The notes: a model not told the origin generated them from the sequence alone. Positions 42,106 through 48,651 are shown, counted from the first letter of the stretch. The stretch is DNA of 64,000 nt from Verrucomicrobiia bacterium (GCA_030425385.1 JAUIAH010000006.1:1-64000), one strand, 5' to 3'. Numbers and translations: made by a program.

Positions 42106-45105
42106 ATGCGTCCTGATTTCTCAGCAGCGAGCCGACGATTGCCCCTTGCGGCCATTCTCTTCTTGCTGCTCGTGTGTCGTCTATCGGGAGTCGAAGTGGT
42201 GACATCCGTCACGCAATTGACGCGATTGACTGCTGATCAGATTCGAACGGAGCCACGAGCGGAGATGGAGGGTGTGGTCACCTATGCGGATCCCACCTGG
42301 CGCATGGTCTTTCTGCATGTGGGAGATCGCTTTCTCTTCTTACAGTATGCGGAGACCACTCTTAATCCTGGCGACAGGGTGCGCATCCAAGGGAAAGTGA
42401 CCGGAGGGCATCTCGACCCCTACGTGATGGGCGAGCGCGTTGAGGTGTTGTCGACTGGCCATCCCATGCCAGAGCCGATGCCGCTCGATCTGCAGGAGTT
42501 TGATGAGAGTGCCGCTAGTGGACGTTGGGTGAAAGCAAGTGGGACGGTTGAGAATGTGGTCGTCGATTTCGGGTGGACCTCCCTCAATTGCCGCAGTGTT
42601 TCTGGAGCGATGTTCCGCATTCATGTTCCTGAAGAATCCTCCATTGATGCATCACTCGCGCTCCTTGGGAGGTCGGTCGACGTCGAAGGCAATCTCGGAA
42701 TTGCCCTCGATGCGGATGATCGCGTGTCGGGCTACATGCTGTTCGTGCAATCGAAAGACGACTTCCACGAGTCGCCTGAATCAAAGGGGTCTAGCAGTCC
42801 AGAACTGAACGAAACCGAGGACATTGTGTCTCTGAGTGAATCTCCGCAACCTCATGAAGTTGTGGACTTTGAGGGTATTTGCACGTATTCGCAGGGAGAA
42901 GTCATCACGGTGGCAGACGCGACGGGAGGCGTTCGCATCAAGGTGCCTGGAGGGATCAAACTGGCTGAGGGGATGCGGGTGCGGGTTATTGGAACCCAAG
43001 TTCTTGTGGGGATGCATCCCTCCATTACTGCGCGAGTGATTCAGCCATTGGGTGAAGGGGAGATTCCTCAGCCTGTGCGCCTGGATCATGTTTCTCCAGA
43101 TTCCGATCAGGGGAGGCTCGTGATCGTGCGTGGGGACCATCCGCGCCTGAGTAGCCATCGTGATCGCGATGGCCATCGCATGCTCGAACTCACGGATTCC
43201 CAAGGCAACTCATTCGTGGTCTCCCTGGAGGATGTGGATGAGGCGTCGCTGCGGGAGTTCATTCGAGATGCGGAACAGATCGAGGTGAGAGGTACCTGTG
43301 TCTTCGGCCTCACGAATGGATTCTTTACCCATGTGATCCATGGGCATGGGCTTGAGGCTCTCCACGTCACCAAAGAGAAGCCGCTCCTCGACTCACGTAC
43401 GATGGTCGCTCTCTTTGGGATCATGGCTGGATTGAGCCTTATCGGAGCCGTGCGCTCCGAGTGGTTACGACGAAAGGTCCATGAACGGACGACGCACCTT
43501 TCGGAAATGACGGCGCAGCTGCAAGCGGCCTACCGCGCCATCGATGAAGCAATTCTCTTCCATGATCTCGAAGAGAGAGTAGTCATGACCGATGGGCGCT
43601 TGGATCATTGGTTTGGGATCCCTGTGGCTCAGGGGGAGTCGTGCGCCAATGTCTTCGACATCCTCTGCTCGGAAAAGTGCCGCATTGTCCCCTCAAACCC
43701 GGACGAGCTTGCCGAGCCTGCCTCTCCTGAGGACGAACTCGATAGCTTCACCAAACGGCTGGCCGCCCTGCGGGCCAATCCGGATCGTTCGATGGAATTT
43801 GAGTTCACTCTCAGTGAGCCAGAAGCGCGTACCATCAAGTGTGTGATCGCTCCCGTTCAAGTGGATGGTGAGATTCTCGGGCGCATATGGGCCTTCCGTG
43901 ACCTAACGAAAGAGAAGGAACTCTATGCCAGCTTGGTTCAGGCGCAGAAGATGGAAGCCGTCGGGCGTCTTGCGGGAGGCATCGCTCACGATTTCAACAA
44001 TCTCCTCACGGGAATCACCGGCAACCTTGCCGTCGCGAAACTGAATACGGACGTGCCTTTGAGAGATTCGCTTGAGCACTTGGATGCGGCCGAAAGCGCA
44101 GCCGTGCGAGCTTCCGAACTGGTCAAACAGATGCTCGGCTTCTCTCGCAAAGCGCATCTCGAATTGAAAGTCTGCGATGTGAATGATGTCGTCACGCGGC
44201 TGAGTGAACTCATCCGCCATTCGTTGGGGGCGACGGTGGATATCAGGCTCGAGCTCGACGACGCGATTGCTCCCGTCAAGCTCGACGGGACCCAGCTTGA
44301 ACAGGTGTTGATGAATATGTGTGTCAACGCCCGCGATGCCTTGCCGGATACGGGAGGCGTCATTGAATTCAAGACGTCGACCTGTCAGCTGGAAGCATCG
44401 GAGTCCCGCCAAGCAGGCGATTACACCATGATCTCGGTAATCGACAACGGATCGGGGATGCCTCCGGAAGTGCTCTCCAAGATCTTTGAGCCCTTCTTCA
44501 CGACCAAGGAGCAGGGGAAGGGAACTGGATTGGGCCTTGCCATGTCCTTCGGCCTGGTGGAACAGCATGGCGGGTGGATCGAGTGCGATTCCGAGGTGGG
44601 CAATGGGACCGAATTTCGCATCTACTTGCCGACGCATCTAGGCCCGCTCCACCAGACCGCAGAAACGACCATCAAACGCGAAACCGCCTTGGATGCGGTG
44701 GGGGATCGGCGCAAGATCATGGTTGTCGACGATGAATCAGTGGTTCGCACAGTCGCCGCCGGGATTCTCCGGAAGTGCGACTTCGAAGTCATCACGGCTG
44801 AGAACGGTCGTGAGGCAGTGGAGAAGGCGGCAAGCGCGCTCGATTCCCTGGATGCGGTGCTTCTGGATCTCACCATGCCGGTCATGTCGGGCAAAGAGGC
44901 GCTCCGTCGCCTCAAGGATCTGAGACCCGACCTGCCCGTGATCATTTGCAGCGGCTTCCTCGTGGACCTCGACACCTTTAGCAAGGAGGTTGGTGTCGCA
45001 CCCGATGGCTTCGTGCAGAAGCCCTACGATCTCTCCGTGCTCATCGCCGCTATCCGCGAATGCCTCGCCGACACATGCGAGAATGACCTGGTCCTGGCCT
45101 CGTGA
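42106..45105 (+). CDS. Hybrid sensor histidine kinase with receiver domain
   Basis: A 999-residue kinase. The signal/anchor (about 8-28) leads to a long periplasmic sensor (30-430) made of OB-like repeats (GVVTYADPTWRMVFLHVGDR, GDRVRIQGKVTGG; a second set near 240-320, TYSQGEVITVADATGGVRIK). A membrane segment at about 432-448, a PAS-like region (480-600), HisKA with phospho-acceptor His near 627 (GGIAHDFNNLLTG), HATPase (DNGSGMPPEVLSKIFEPFF, GTGLGLAMSFG) and a terminal receiver (KIMVVDDES, acceptor Asp near 922 in LLDLTMPVMSG) follow. Phosphate probably moves from His to its own receiver and onward. It lies 47 bp upstream of the metal-signalling operon on the same strand. Confidence 0.93.
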   Translation: MRPDFSAASRRLPLAAILFLLLVCRLSGVEVVTSVTQLTRLTADQIRTEPRAEMEGVVTYADPTWRMVFLHVGDRFLFLQYAETTLNPGDRVRIQGKVTGGHLDPYVMGERVEVLSTGHPMPEPMPLDLQEFDESAASGRWVKASGTVENVVVDFGWTSLNCRSVSGAMFRIHVPEESSIDASLALLGRSVDVEGNLGIALDADDRVSGYMLFVQSKDDFHESPESKGSSSPELNETEDIVSLSESPQPHEVVDFEGICTYSQGEVITVADATGGVRIKVPGGIKLAEGMRVRVIGTQVLVGMHPSITARVIQPLGEGEIPQPVRLDHVSPDSDQGRLVIVRGDHPRLSSHRDRDGHRMLELTDSQGNSFVVSLEDVDEASLREFIRDAEQIEVRGTCVFGLTNGFFTHVIHGHGLEALHVTKEKPLLDSRTMVALFGIMAGLSLIGAVRSEWLRRKVHERTTHLSEMTAQLQAAYRAIDEAILFHDLEERVVMTDGRLDHWFGIPVAQGESCANVFDILCSEKCRIVPSNPDELAEPASPEDELDSFTKRLAALRANPDRSMEFEFTLSEPEARTIKCVIAPVQVDGEILGRIWAFRDLTKEKELYASLVQAQKMEAVGRLAGGIAHDFNNLLTGITGNLAVAKLNTDVPLRDSLEHLDAAESAAVRASELVKQMLGFSRKAHLELKVCDVNDVVTRLSELIRHSLGATVDIRLELDDAIAPVKLDGTQLEQVLMNMCVNARDALPDTGGVIEFKTSTCQLEASESRQAGDYTMISVIDNGSGMPPEVLSKIFEPFFTTKEQGKGTGLGLAMSFGLVEQHGGWIECDSEVGNGTEFRIYLPTHLGPLHQTAETTIKRETALDAVGDRRKIMVVDDESVVRTVAAGILRKCDFEVITAENGREAVEKAASALDSLDAVLLDLTMPVMSGKEALRRLKDLRPDLPVIICSGFLVDLDTFSKEVGVAPDGFVQKPYDLSVLIAAIRECLADTCENDLVLAS

Positions 45106-45152: not shown

Positions 45153-45428
45153 GTGAGCACCAACCACGCACTCGATAAGGCGATCGACCAGGCAAGAGGG
45201 GACTCGCCACCACCGCTTCCTGGGGACTTTGCCGACCAGGTGATGGGAAGACTCCCTCTCGCAGATGGGGAGGTCTGGCCTCCGTTTGCCGTCAGCGTGC
45301 TCGGAGTCGCAGCTGGGGTCGCCTTGATCGTCTCTGGCGTCGTCGCCGCGAGTTTCGCGCGGAGTGATCACTTTCCGCAACTCGCTCTCTTTCAGGTGGA
45401 AGCGGCTACTTTTAACGCTCATCGTTGA
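45153..45428 (+). CDS. CnrY-like small membrane anti-sigma factor
   Basis: A 91-residue protein with a charged N-terminus (about 1-40) and one membrane segment (about 45-70, VSVLGVAAGVALIVSGVVAA), topology N-in. It has no recognisable zinc finger. Position, size and topology match CnrY, the anti-sigma of Cupriavidus cnrYXH, which holds the sigma factor at the membrane; sequence similarity itself is weak, so the role rests on context. GTG start at 45153. Its stop overlaps the next start by one base (TGATG). Confidence 0.65.
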   Translation: MSTNHALDKAIDQARGDSPPPLPGDFADQVMGRLPLADGEVWPPFAVSVLGVAAGVALIVSGVVAASFARSDHFPQLALFQVEAATFNAHR

Positions 45429-45865
45429 TGAATCGTTTGGGGTGGTTTGTGGGTGCGGGTGCTGTGGCCGCAGTGGTGAGTCTGGCGATGTGGGCGCTCC
45501 TTGGGCATCGGCATGCGCATGCGGAGGATGAATTACATGCCTGGATGCATGCGAACCTCGACCTCACCCCAGAGCAGGATGCCTCACTTCATCCACTCGA
45601 AGAGGCGTTTGAGGAAGAGAGACGCCAGATGCACGCGGCGATCGAAGAGGCTGGGACCAAGCTGGGAACTGCCTTGTTGAAAGGGGACCTACAGTCTCCT
45701 GAAGCCCAGACGGCTCTCGACGCGTTGGAAAGCGCGCAAGCACGCTTGCGCCGATGCACCTTGGAACACTTCTTCGCCATGAGAGACCACCTCGATCCCG
45801 AGCAATCTGAAAGACTCCTCACCTGGGTTGCCAAAAGCATTGCTCCTGATGGCTCTCACGATTGA
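45428..45865 (+). CDS. CnrX-like periplasmic nickel/cobalt sensor
   Basis: A 145-residue protein with an N-terminal membrane anchor (about 5-25) and a periplasmic four-helix domain. The ligands known for CnrX (two His four apart, a Glu, then a His and Met four apart) all have counterparts: H37 and H41 in ELHAWMHANL, E58 in HPLEEAFEEE, H114 and M118 in LEHFFAMRD. Conserved landmarks (LTPEQD, DLQSPE, ERL) also align. Binding of Ni or Co is expected to release the anti-sigma upstream. Start is the ATG at 45428, one base inside the previous stop; a TTG lies just upstream. Ends 14 bp inside the sigma gene. Confidence 0.8.
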   Translation: MNRLGWFVGAGAVAAVVSLAMWALLGHRHAHAEDELHAWMHANLDLTPEQDASLHPLEEAFEEERRQMHAAIEEAGTKLGTALLKGDLQSPEAQTALDALESAQARLRRCTLEHFFAMRDHLDPEQSERLLTWVAKSIAPDGSHD

Positions 45866-46487
45866 TCTCATCGATGCGATTGCGGACGAGGCTCAGGAGA
45901 CTGAGTTGTCCCGTCCACGCATCCAAGACTCCCATCCTCCCCATCCCGAGGAGGGCAGCTTGGTCGAGAAGGCTCGCGGAGGCGACCCGGACGCTTTCCG
46001 GGAGATTGTGGAGTATTACGAGTGGGCGGTCTACACGTTCAGTTATCGGTGGCTTCACTCTCCCGAAGATGCCCAGGAGGTGGCTCAGGATACCTTTCTT
46101 CGGGCTTACCGCGGTCTTTCCAACTATCGGCATGAGGGAAAGCTATCTACCTGGCTTTTCCAGATTGCGCTCAATCTCTGTCGGGACCGGCGTCGTTCCC
46201 CCAGACTCACGCCGCCTCCCAGTGTTCCGCTGGAATCCTCTTCCAACCTCCTTTGCAATTGTCATTCTCCCGATCAGGAAGCGACGTGGAAGAGTGACCT
46301 AACCAAGCTCACAGAAGGATTGGAGGCCCTGCCAAGACGACTGCGGGAACCCTTGATCCTGTGTGGAGTGCAAGGGCTGAGTCATGACGAAGCCTCCAGT
46401 GTCCTCAAGTGCTCACCTCGTGCCATCGAAGGGAGAGTATACCGGGCCCGACAACGTCTTGGGCAATGGTGGGAGCAGCATCGCTGA
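45852..46487 (+). CDS. ECF-type sigma-70 factor, CnrH-like
   Basis: A 211-residue ECF sigma. Region 2 spans about 45-110 (GDPDAFREIVEYYEWAVYTF, SPEDAQEVAQDTFLRAYRGL, STWLFQIALNLCRDRRR) and region 4 about 145-205 (ALPRRLREPLILCGVQGLS, KCSPRAIEGRVYRARQRL). The first 35 residues are an acidic extension. Gene order anti-sigma, sensor, sigma equals cnrYXH. It overlaps the sensor gene by 14 bp (translational coupling likely). The ATG at 45852 is preferred over a TTG at 45828. Its targets likely include the TonB receptor that starts 97 bp downstream. Confidence 0.9.
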   Translation, partial: ALTIDLIDAIADEAQETELSRPRIQDSHPPHPEEGSLVEKARGGDPDAFREIVEYYEWAVYTFSYRWLHSPEDAQEVAQDTFLRAYRGLSNYRHEGKLSTWLFQIALNLCRDRRRSPRLTPPPSVPLESSSNLLCNCHSPDQEATWKSDLTKLTEGLEALPRRLREPLILCGVQGLSHDEASSVLKCSPRAIEGRVYRARQRLGQWWEQHR

Positions 46488-46584
46488 CGCAATCTCATCT
46501 AAATGGCATCCCAAATGGGAGAAGTTTCGTAAACGAATTCGTGGGGCGTTCGGCAACCGCTCGTCTCATAAGCGAATTCCCTTT

Positions 46585-48651
46585 ATGAAACGATTCCGAT
46601 ACTTGCTCATCGCCCCATTCTTTCTCTCTCCATTGGCCCAAGGCCAGGACCTTCCTACAGAGGCATTCCCGGAGGGAATGGACACCCTTGATCCCACGGT
46701 CGTGATTGGCAAAGCCGAGGATCTCCTGGGATTCGCGGCGACTTCCAGTTCTGGCCAGGCCAATAATGAGGAACTCAGCCAGCGCCCGGTCCTGCGGCGC
46801 GGCGAATTGCTCGAAGTGGTTCCGGGCGTGGTCATTACTCAGCATTCCGGCGGCGGGAAAGCCAATCAGTATTTCGTCCGTGGGTTCAATTTGGATCACG
46901 GAACCGATTTCCACGTTTCATTGGACGGCATGCCGGTCAATTTCCGAACCCATGCCCACGGTCAAGGCTACGCGGACCTCAATTTCTTGATTCCAGAATT
47001 TATTGAACGGCTTGATTACTCGAAAGGGCCATTCAACGCACAGTTGGGAGACCTTTCCACTGCTGGAGCGGCTCAGTATCGACTCTTCCACGAACTTCCA
47101 CGAGGGCTCGCCGGCATCACCATCGGTGAGAATGACTATTTCCGCGCCGTACTCGGCGATTCCTGGGTGGTGGGAGATGGAGTTCTCACGCTCGGAGGCG
47201 AACACACGCGTGAGAATGGTCCGTGGTCTGAGCCCGACAGCTATCGCCGATTCAATGGATTCCTGCGGTATCATGTCGGGGATGATGACAACTATTTCAA
47301 TGTCACCGCGATGGCTCATGCGGGCGAATGGGATGCCACCGATCAGATCCCACGGCGTGCCATCCGCGATGGACGTCTCGGGCGTTTTGACGCCTTTGAT
47401 ACGTCTTCAGGGGGAGAAACGGCCCGTCACAGCCTGCAGATGAGCTGGCAGGCAAAGAACGCAAGCACGACGACCCACATGGACGCTTGGGTAGGCTACT
47501 ACGATCTCGATCTCTTCTCTAATTTCACCTACCTGCTGAGTGATCCCATCAACGGGGATCAATTCGAGCAGAAAGAAAGCCGGTTCTTCGCCGGGATCGA
47601 TCTCTGGCGACGCTGGGAATACGATCTGGCCGGGCTCCCAAGTCACACCACGATAGGCCTGCAAACCCAGCACGATTGGATCAACGACATTGGTCTGCAT
47701 TTGACGAAGAATCAGCAGCGCCTGGCAACGGTTCGTGAGGACGATGTTTATCAGTCGAATCTGGGCCTCTACCTGGATCACGAGACCCAGGTCACTCCAT
47801 GGCTGCGCGTGGGGGCCGGATTGCGGGCGGATGGATTTCTATTTGATGTCGATGGTGATTCCGTCAATTCGGGACAGGAAACGGACGGCATCCTTAGTCC
47901 CAAGTTTCACCTTGTCTTGGGACCCTGGGCGGAGACGGAGATCTACCTCAATGGCGGGCTCGGCTTCCATAGCAATGATGCTCGAGGCACCACGATCACC
48001 CGTGATCCGGTGTCTGGGGATGCGGTCGATGCGGTCGATCCCTTGGTGCGGACAGAAGGTCTGGAAATCGGGTTGCGCACGCAGGTCATCCCCGATCTGA
48101 CGGCTACCGTTTCCCTTTGGGGACTGCGTAGTGATAGCGAATTCGTTTACGTGGGCGATGCGGGCACGACGGAAGCGGGGCCAGCCTCGGAACGCTATGG
48201 GGTGGAAGTAGCCGCCTACTGGCGCCCCACGGATTGGCTGGCGGTGGATGCCGAATATGCGTGGAGTCATGCGCGCTTCCGTGATCTGCCTTCGAGCGAG
48301 AATCACATCCCTAATGCCGTCGAGCACATGGCGTCTGCAGGGATCACGGCGGGCAACGAAGAAGGGCTCTACACAAGCCTCCGTGCGCGTTATTTCTCGC
48401 CACGGCCCCTGGACGAATCCGGAGATATTGAAGGGGACACGAGTTTCCAGCTCAACGGGCGGATCGGCTATAGAAGGGGTCCGTGGGACTTCGCCATCGA
48501 TTGTCTGAATATTCTCGATAGAAAGGACAATGACATTGAGTATTATTATGAAAGCCGATTGCCTGGCGAGCCCGCTGAGGGAATTGCCGACGTGCATCTT
48601 CACCCTTCCGAGCCCAGGCAGTTCCGGCTGAGTGCTACCTATCGGTGGTAG
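46585..48651 (+). CDS. TonB-dependent receptor downstream of the metal-sensing operon
   Basis: A 688-residue receptor with signal peptide (MKRFRYLLIAPFFLSPLAQG). The plug has the conserved blocks RRGELLEVVPGVVITQHSGG, KANQYFVRGFNLDHGTDFHV, SLDGMPVNFRTHAHGQGY and LSTAGAAQYRLF, and the barrel ends in FRLSATYRW. The plug is His-rich near its tip (HAHGQG). Linked to a CnrYXH-like module, it may be an outer membrane entry point for Ni, Co or their chelates; this is inference from context. The ATG at 46585 begins the signal peptide; the frame upstream overlaps the sigma gene. No efflux (RND) genes follow. Confidence 0.92.
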   Translation: MKRFRYLLIAPFFLSPLAQGQDLPTEAFPEGMDTLDPTVVIGKAEDLLGFAATSSSGQANNEELSQRPVLRRGELLEVVPGVVITQHSGGGKANQYFVRGFNLDHGTDFHVSLDGMPVNFRTHAHGQGYADLNFLIPEFIERLDYSKGPFNAQLGDLSTAGAAQYRLFHELPRGLAGITIGENDYFRAVLGDSWVVGDGVLTLGGEHTRENGPWSEPDSYRRFNGFLRYHVGDDDNYFNVTAMAHAGEWDATDQIPRRAIRDGRLGRFDAFDTSSGGETARHSLQMSWQAKNASTTTHMDAWVGYYDLDLFSNFTYLLSDPINGDQFEQKESRFFAGIDLWRRWEYDLAGLPSHTTIGLQTQHDWINDIGLHLTKNQQRLATVREDDVYQSNLGLYLDHETQVTPWLRVGAGLRADGFLFDVDGDSVNSGQETDGILSPKFHLVLGPWAETEIYLNGGLGFHSNDARGTTITRDPVSGDAVDAVDPLVRTEGLEIGLRTQVIPDLTATVSLWGLRSDSEFVYVGDAGTTEAGPASERYGVEVAAYWRPTDWLAVDAEYAWSHARFRDLPSSENHIPNAVEHMASAGITAGNEEGLYTSLRARYFSPRPLDESGDIEGDTSFQLNGRIGYRRGPWDFAIDCLNILDRKDNDIEYYYESRLPGEPAEGIADVHLHPSEPRQFRLSATYRW

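Follow-up and report, generated by a model that had tools for sequence, protein, structure and literature searches.

A CnrX-type sensor module preceding a predicted nickel/cobalt TonB receptor in a Verrucomicrobiia bacterium

A 64,000-nucleotide stretch from a Verrucomicrobiia bacterium (GCA_030425385.1 JAUIAH010000006.1:1-64000), here called the window, contains a four-gene locus at positions 45153-48651. Reading of the open reading frames (ORFs) gives the order anti-sigma factor, CnrX-type metal sensor, extracytoplasmic function (ECF) sigma factor and TonB-dependent outer-membrane receptor, all on the plus strand. The locus probably encodes a nickel/cobalt-responsive sigma switch dedicated to this receptor, a reading given a probability of roughly three in four. 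An earlier note on the same DNA had suggested that the locus may be either a circuit for metal-responsive uptake or an envelope response derived from efflux by rewiring. The first of these is supported by the context of the receptor in its relatives, by its linkage to the sensor module and by a promoter motif.

In the proposed circuit, the ECF sigma factor would be held by the membrane-bound anti-sigma factor together with the periplasmic CnrX-type sensor. Binding of Ni(II) or Co(II) at residues H37, H41, E58, H114 and M118 would alter this complex, both the binding and the identity of the metal being predicted from sequence. The freed sigma factor would then start transcription at a CGTGGG-N16-CGTC site immediately upstream of the receptor gene, whose product would import a nickel species across the outer membrane. 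Such a circuit would be dedicated, with a single target.

Linkage of sensor and receptor

The sensor and the receptor were both sought in 57 relatives, and the sensor also in 286 genomes of the class. In total, 26 sensors of the clade that includes the window were found. As for which genes follow homologous loci, a survey that the earlier note had called for, 21 of the 26 modules are followed by a receptor gene on the same strand. Twelve of these are directly adjacent and two have intervening genes (first sample), while the other seven come from the class-wide sample. The intervening genes, between ECF and receptor, are either ExbB-ExbD-TonB or a ZnuA-like gene.

One further module has a divergent receptor (L074) and one ends at a contig edge (L059/L124, genome G013). 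Three modules (L063, L069 and L227) have no neighbouring receptor. The genomes of L063 and L069 carry the receptor on a different contig, and L227 is a second copy in a genome that also has a receptor-linked one. Among the 57 relatives, the receptor is present in 16 of 16 genomes with a clade sensor (Fisher p 4e-9). More distant sensors adjoin resistance-nodulation-division (RND) pumps, P-type ATPases and Cop genes.

The receptor promoter

Upstream of the receptor genes lies a bipartite site resembling an ECF promoter, TTTC-C(G/A)TGGG-N16/17-CGTT, which also occurs with CGTC at its end. In the window it consists of a -35-like CGTGGG (46540-46545), a 16-nucleotide spacer and a -10-like CGTC (46562-46565), with the receptor start codon 19 nucleotides downstream of CGTC. 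Among sensor-bearing genomes, 24 of the 25 regions upstream of a receptor gene contain the site, 23 in strict and one in relaxed form, where the background rate is 0.02 per region. These counts come from related loci and hence are not independent events; the upstream DNA around the sites is not alignable, and the spacer sequences differ.

Weight matrices were built from 16 training loci, with the window and the class-wide loci excluded. They place the window's receptor site first among 255,820 choices of position and spacer in the 64 kb, and the receptor site is likewise first in 7 of 7 held-out loci. True sites score 20-31, whereas receptors without an adjacent sensor reach 11.2 at best and mostly score under 4. 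The site is retained in two genomes (G014 and G018, loci L119 and L120) in which receptor and module are on separate contigs. The predicted assignment of the sigma factor to the receptor is thus supported by conserved linkage and by the promoter motif, also in trans. Sigma-dependent transcription of the receptor, on which the earlier note had staked its reading, is predicted from the ECF-type promoter that precedes the gene.

These observations bear on the simplest alternative, that the two genes adjoin by chance and the receptor is separately regulated. The three modules without a receptor alongside would fit such an arrangement. Linkage in 21 of 26 modules, retention of the motif at the unlinked L119 and L120 and the result for the held-out loci speak against it, and chance adjacency is strongly disfavoured, to the point of being very nearly dismissed.

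In 13 of 24 loci, including L119, L120, L222, L067 and L231, the start codon (often GTG) lies only 8-10 nucleotides past CGTT, which suggests that the receptor transcripts of those loci are leaderless.

A motif shared by the receptor and the anti-sigma gene had been expected before 46585 and 45153. It is present before the receptor; a search upstream of the anti-sigma gene did not find it, although another form of promoter there is compatible with this result. Control of the module by its own sigma factor is therefore not apparent.

A search of the window's genome with the pattern CGTGGGN{16,17}CGTYTC gave eight matches, compared with five for a control. Besides the receptor site, one match lies just upstream of an ORF, and the others are mostly inside ORFs. 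Since the matches hardly exceed the control and only one other stands upstream of an ORF, the sigma regulon is likely to be very small. This is relevant to a second alternative, a metal-stress or envelope response that includes a receptor for an unrelated substrate. CnrX-type modules elsewhere do control copper resistance and RND pumps. A broad response is nevertheless hard to reconcile with the genome-wide pattern, and the existence of one conserved target, belonging to a family associated with nickel, favours a dedicated circuit; a general stress response is therefore considered very unlikely.

The metal sensor

The sensor matches the Pfam family Metal_resist (E 2.5e-16), and in a sequence search of the PDB its only significant matches are CnrX and NccX structures (best E 6e-13). 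Its predicted model is of modest quality (mean predicted local distance difference test score 76). A fold search with it gives CnrX-type structures as the only significant matches, CnrX first.

Residues H37, H41, E58, H114 and M118 align with the five metal ligands of CnrX, as had been claimed. Loss of these ligands in orthologues would have told against a CnrX-like role; they are invariant in 18 of 18 receptor-linked sensors of the first sample and in 26 of 26 of the enlarged one. This conserved site suggests that the module would respond to metal. In CnrX, binding of nickel or cobalt recruits the methionine and frees the sigma factor, while bound zinc leaves Met123 unrecruited and gives no signal (PMC7689651). 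Because the signalling methionine is retained, its invariance argues that the site in sensors of this type still discriminates nickel and cobalt.

Five-ligand sensors with ECF genes are also found on sphingomonad and Caulobacter plasmids (L184, L185 and L186), where the modules lead into CopAB copper resistance or P-type ATPase genes, which means that the five residues by themselves do not identify the metal.

The sigma and anti-sigma factors

The ECF sigma factor has Sigma70_r2 (E 2.6e-15) and r4_2 (E 9e-12) domains and is 30% identical to CnrH over 181 residues (E 3e-23). In the PDB, sigma factors of the AlgU/RpoE type match it better than CnrH does.

The anti-sigma factor has no match in Pfam or NCBIfam, and no similarity to CnrY is detectable; its position, size and single hydrophobic segment are the only resemblances. 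The label "cnrYXH-like" used in the earlier note thus holds for the sensor, the ECF sigma factor and the gene order, but the anti-sigma factor is not recognisably CnrY. Short anti-sigma homologues occur at the equivalent position in L059, L060 and L066. None of the proteins of the window's module matches FecR, the other type of anti-sigma factor considered.

The receptor and its cargo

The receptor contains a TonB Plug domain (E 4e-15), the sole domain found, and its predicted model has the fold of a TonB transporter (predicted template modelling score 0.79). A domain search found no N-terminal signalling (STN) domain. The histidine-rich plug that had been noted in this next gene reads THAHGQGY. 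Across distant homologues H125 of this motif is invariant and H123 variable; H87, D104, H105, D108 and H125 of the plug are invariant across the proteobacterial homologues. Neither sequence matches nor fold matches of the receptor name a substrate.

Evidence for the cargo can be drawn from the neighbours of homologues on annotated proteobacterial plasmids and a Methyloversatilis chromosome, which are 41-47% identical to the receptor (36% in Sphingopyxis). A nikR gene stands beside the homologue in Afipia pHCG3, Methylomagnum, Paraburkholderia, Polymorphobacter and a comamonad (NikR-adjoining loci L130, L132, L134, L136, L191 and L038). A HoxN/NixA permease does so in Cupriavidus necator pHG1, Bradyrhizobium, Paraburkholderia and Sphingopyxis (L129, L133, L134 and L189). 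Genes for [NiFe]-hydrogenase or its hyp proteins are found in L129, L130, L133 and L038, and cobalamin genes in L131 and L189. In Methyloversatilis, genes for NikR and for a hydrogenase large subunit are found on the chromosome just upstream of the homologue. The Indioceanicola homologue has no nickel- or cobalt-type neighbour at its locus. Two proteobacterial receptors, Bll6948 and Daro_3944, are predicted to be nickel receptors (PMC7142613 and PMC11247825, citing Rodionov et al. 2006). Because the homologues adjoin NikR, HoxN/NixA, hydrogenase or cobalamin genes, the cargo of the receptor is probably nickel (or cobalt).

In some verrucomicrobial relatives, the companions of the module are also uptake machinery. 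ExbB-ExbD-TonB genes accompany it in L060 and in L037, a locus of the cultivable Luteolibacter marinus; in L060 they stand between ECF and receptor. A gene for a ZnuA-type periplasmic protein overlaps the receptor stop codon in L065, L067 and L068. An orphan ZnuA-type protein adjoins the receptor in L064, L065, L067 and L068 and is possibly a nickel-binding partner.

Zinc was the first reading of the cargo, from the ZnuABC genes of L060, and was demoted after the NikR, HoxN and hydrogenase context of the proteobacterial homologues. In this alternative a ZnuD-like receptor takes up zinc under a zinc-reading sensor. It draws on the L060 module, which is followed by genes for an outer-membrane protein, ZnuA, ZnuC and ZnuB (a complete ZnuABC-type operon), and on the three overlaps of a ZnuA-type gene with the receptor stop. 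Several observations make zinc an unlikely cargo, however. The readable proteobacterial relatives nearly all have the nickel- or cobalt-type neighbours described above, and a ZnuA-type ATP-binding cassette set is nearby only in L132, where NikR is directly adjacent. The orthologous zinc operon of the window's genome lies on a different contig and includes a Fur-type regulator of its own. The ZnuA-type partner in L068 appears, by eye, to be without two of the usual histidine ligands. Finally, zinc is non-signalling in CnrX, where Met123 is not recruited (PMC7689651), whereas the methionine is invariant in the clade.

The zinc-type operon of the window's genome (G000:C55, about 784.6-789.6 kb; L116:6614-11587) encodes a 472-residue outer-membrane-like protein without a Pfam match, ZnuA, a small protein, ZnuC, ZnuB and a Fur-family regulator. 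Its orthologue in G011 (L060) comes after the sensor-receptor module.

The window's genome encodes urease, a nickel enzyme. It also encodes a NikR-C-domain regulator (G000:C35, about 112-119 kb; L158:3152-10204), in a cluster with two DUF1989 genes, a biotin-dependent carboxylase of the urea/guanidine type and allophanate hydrolase. The sensor and a NikR-domain gene strongly co-occur (p 2e-6). The arrangement of NikR-C and DUF1989 ORFs recurs in many relatives; in the window's genome, some 14 kb separate the cluster from urease. The cluster may be part of a nickel-dependent switch, with urease as one branch and a urea/guanidine route that needs no nickel as the other.

Evolution of the sensor

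A tree of sensor plus ECF sigma factor was made for 52 modules, and one for a smaller sample was also run. The 26 receptor-linked pairs form one clade (SH-like approximate likelihood ratio test 99.7, ultrafast bootstrap 100). Its sister (98/97) is an efflux-linked module from a congener of the window's organism, and the clade as a whole is nested among resistance-linked modules. Because the receptor-linked modules form a single clade within the resistance-linked ones, the simplest reading of the tree is a single co-option from resistance to uptake. The nesting also bears out the part of the earlier proposal that spoke of rewiring from efflux.

The five ligands appear unchanged through this predicted co-option, and fixed changes are found in the C-terminal half of the receptor-linked sensors. 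W133 is present in 26 of 26 receptor-linked sensors, compared with mostly leucine in others. Other clade-specific residues are G76 (instead of Asn), F115 (Val), H121 (Val) and S137 (Ala). One relative, G011, has both sensor types, and its resistance-linked sensors have an identical ligand set.

Direction of the switch

Two directions can be proposed for the predicted switch. In the first, which follows a starvation logic, the sigma factor would be freed when nickel is scarce. A CnrX-type sensor would then have been inverted in evolution, such that its metal-free form releases sigma, senses nickel hunger and runs nickel import in place of NikR-type control; at somewhat less than an even chance, this inversion is held tentatively. 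Such a logic suits a toxic nutrient.

The second direction keeps the polarity of CnrX and is a sub-case of the nickel/cobalt switch. Nickel or cobalt would free the sigma factor, and the receptor would be induced by its substrate as in FecIR-FecA. The five invariant ligands, including the methionine needed for CnrX signalling, agree with this polarity, as does the fact that sister modules drive efflux. The sensor/sigma operon, too, is without a copy of its own promoter motif, and fecIR is likewise not known to carry one; a Fec-like, substrate-induced logic is also parsimonious. On the other hand, uptake would be switched on at high metal, together with efflux where both sensor types are present (G011). 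Taken by itself, retained polarity is tentative to the same degree as inversion. Between the two directions, the starvation logic is slightly favoured, because joint activation of uptake and efflux in G011 would be self-defeating and because sequence changes have become fixed in the C-terminal half of the receptor-linked sensors.

Points against a dedicated nickel/cobalt switch

Several observations weigh against a nickel/cobalt switch dedicated to the receptor. The promoter motif is absent before the linked receptor of L070 and present only in relaxed form in L066. Among the receptors without the sensor, L122 has a weak motif score of 11.2 and L033 a regular-expression match. The case for nickel rests on neighbours of homologues that are 41-47% identical and belong to another phylum, and the verrucomicrobial neighbours, ExbBD/TonB and ZnuA-type genes, also suit zinc. 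The sensor co-occurs only weakly with urease or hydrogenase (p 0.06). The NikR-domain gene was tried as a co-regulator and has no direct support, being located in the urea/guanidine-type cluster and not by the receptor. Finally, if metal freed the sigma factor as in CnrX, the imported metal would induce its own uptake, an unusual arrangement when that metal is toxic.

Features of the locus

The features of the locus are listed in Table 1. The anti-sigma, sensor and ECF genes overlap in the order of cnrYXH, as stated earlier. An ATGA sequence joins the anti-sigma stop and the sensor start at 45428. For the ECF gene, an in-frame ATG (45849) that overlaps the sensor stop is a likelier start than the TTG at 45828.

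Table 1. Predicted features of the sensor-receptor locus in the window.
Feature	Position	Strand	Basis
Anti-sigma factor, CnrY position, 91 aa	45153..45428	+	ORF with GTG start; one hydrophobic segment near residues 45-66
CnrX-type periplasmic metal sensor, 145 aa	45428..45865	+	Metal_resist, CnrX fold, N-terminal transmembrane helix, five ligands
ECF sigma factor	45849..46487	+	Sigma70_r2 and r4_2 domains; TTG 45828 is the start of the listed ORF
Predicted promoter of the local ECF sigma factor	46531..46565	+	A/T-rich stretch, CGTGGG, 16-nt spacer, CGTC
TonB-dependent outer-membrane receptor, 688 aa, predicted nickel/cobalt transporter	46585..48651	+	Plug domain, fold, homologue context

A hybrid histidine kinase gene (HATPase and receiver domains; 42106-45105, same strand) ends 48 nucleotides before the anti-sigma gene, and it is possible that transcription runs from it into the module. 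The window's genome encodes a second, weakly matching Metal_resist protein (G000:C27:94510-94890, in L078) without any of the five CnrX ligands. Its gene is flanked by two sets of RND genes and has an ECF sigma gene nearby.

Comparison with known systems

All parts of the locus are of known kinds; the pairing of a CnrX-type module with such a receptor was found described nowhere in the open-access literature searched. Outer-membrane nickel uptake is known mainly under the control of cytoplasmic NikR. A periplasmic sensor and ECF sigma factor devoted to a nickel receptor would, if true, represent a different control point. The lineage would be a clean case of a sensor that changes its job, and perhaps its sign, without changing its ligands, because efflux is the output of sister modules whose metal site is identical, and both kinds are found together in one relative. 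If true, the switch from detoxification to feeding is an evolutionary reversal open to direct test. The promoter motif and the W133/G76 signature could also tell uptake-linked CnrX homologues, which are annotated "periplasmic heavy metal sensor", from resistance ones.

The proteobacterial predicted nickel transporters Bll6948 and Daro_3944 resemble the window's receptor by context, its homologues adjoining NikR, HoxN/NixA and hydrogenase genes. The neighbouring regulator there is the cytoplasmic NikR, whereas the window has a periplasmic sensor and an ECF sigma factor.

FecIR-FecA is similar in that an ECF sigma factor and a membrane anti-sigma factor are encoded directly upstream of a receptor with its own predicted sigma-dependent promoter. 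It differs in that the window's receptor has no N-terminal signalling domain, its anti-sigma factor is not FecR, and the signal is predicted to be read by a separate, metal-binding periplasmic sensor.

The closest system is cnrYXH-cnrCBAT of Cupriavidus metallidurans, with nccYXH. It shares the gene order, the overlaps, the sensor fold, the five ligands and an ECF sigma factor, with the 30% identity to CnrH given above. Its output is an RND pump, whereas in the window the receptor stands in place of a linked pump, and the genome's RND pumps are encoded either on other contigs or at a distance of at least about 100 kb from the module. Further differences are the anti-sigma factor, the lack of the receptor motif before its gene, and W133, G76, F115 and S137 in the sensors of the window's clade. 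Because its linked target is not an RND pump, the module is not a cnr resistance determinant, and because the receptor has no signalling domain, it is not Fec-type signalling. It is a variant of the CnrYXH sensor module.

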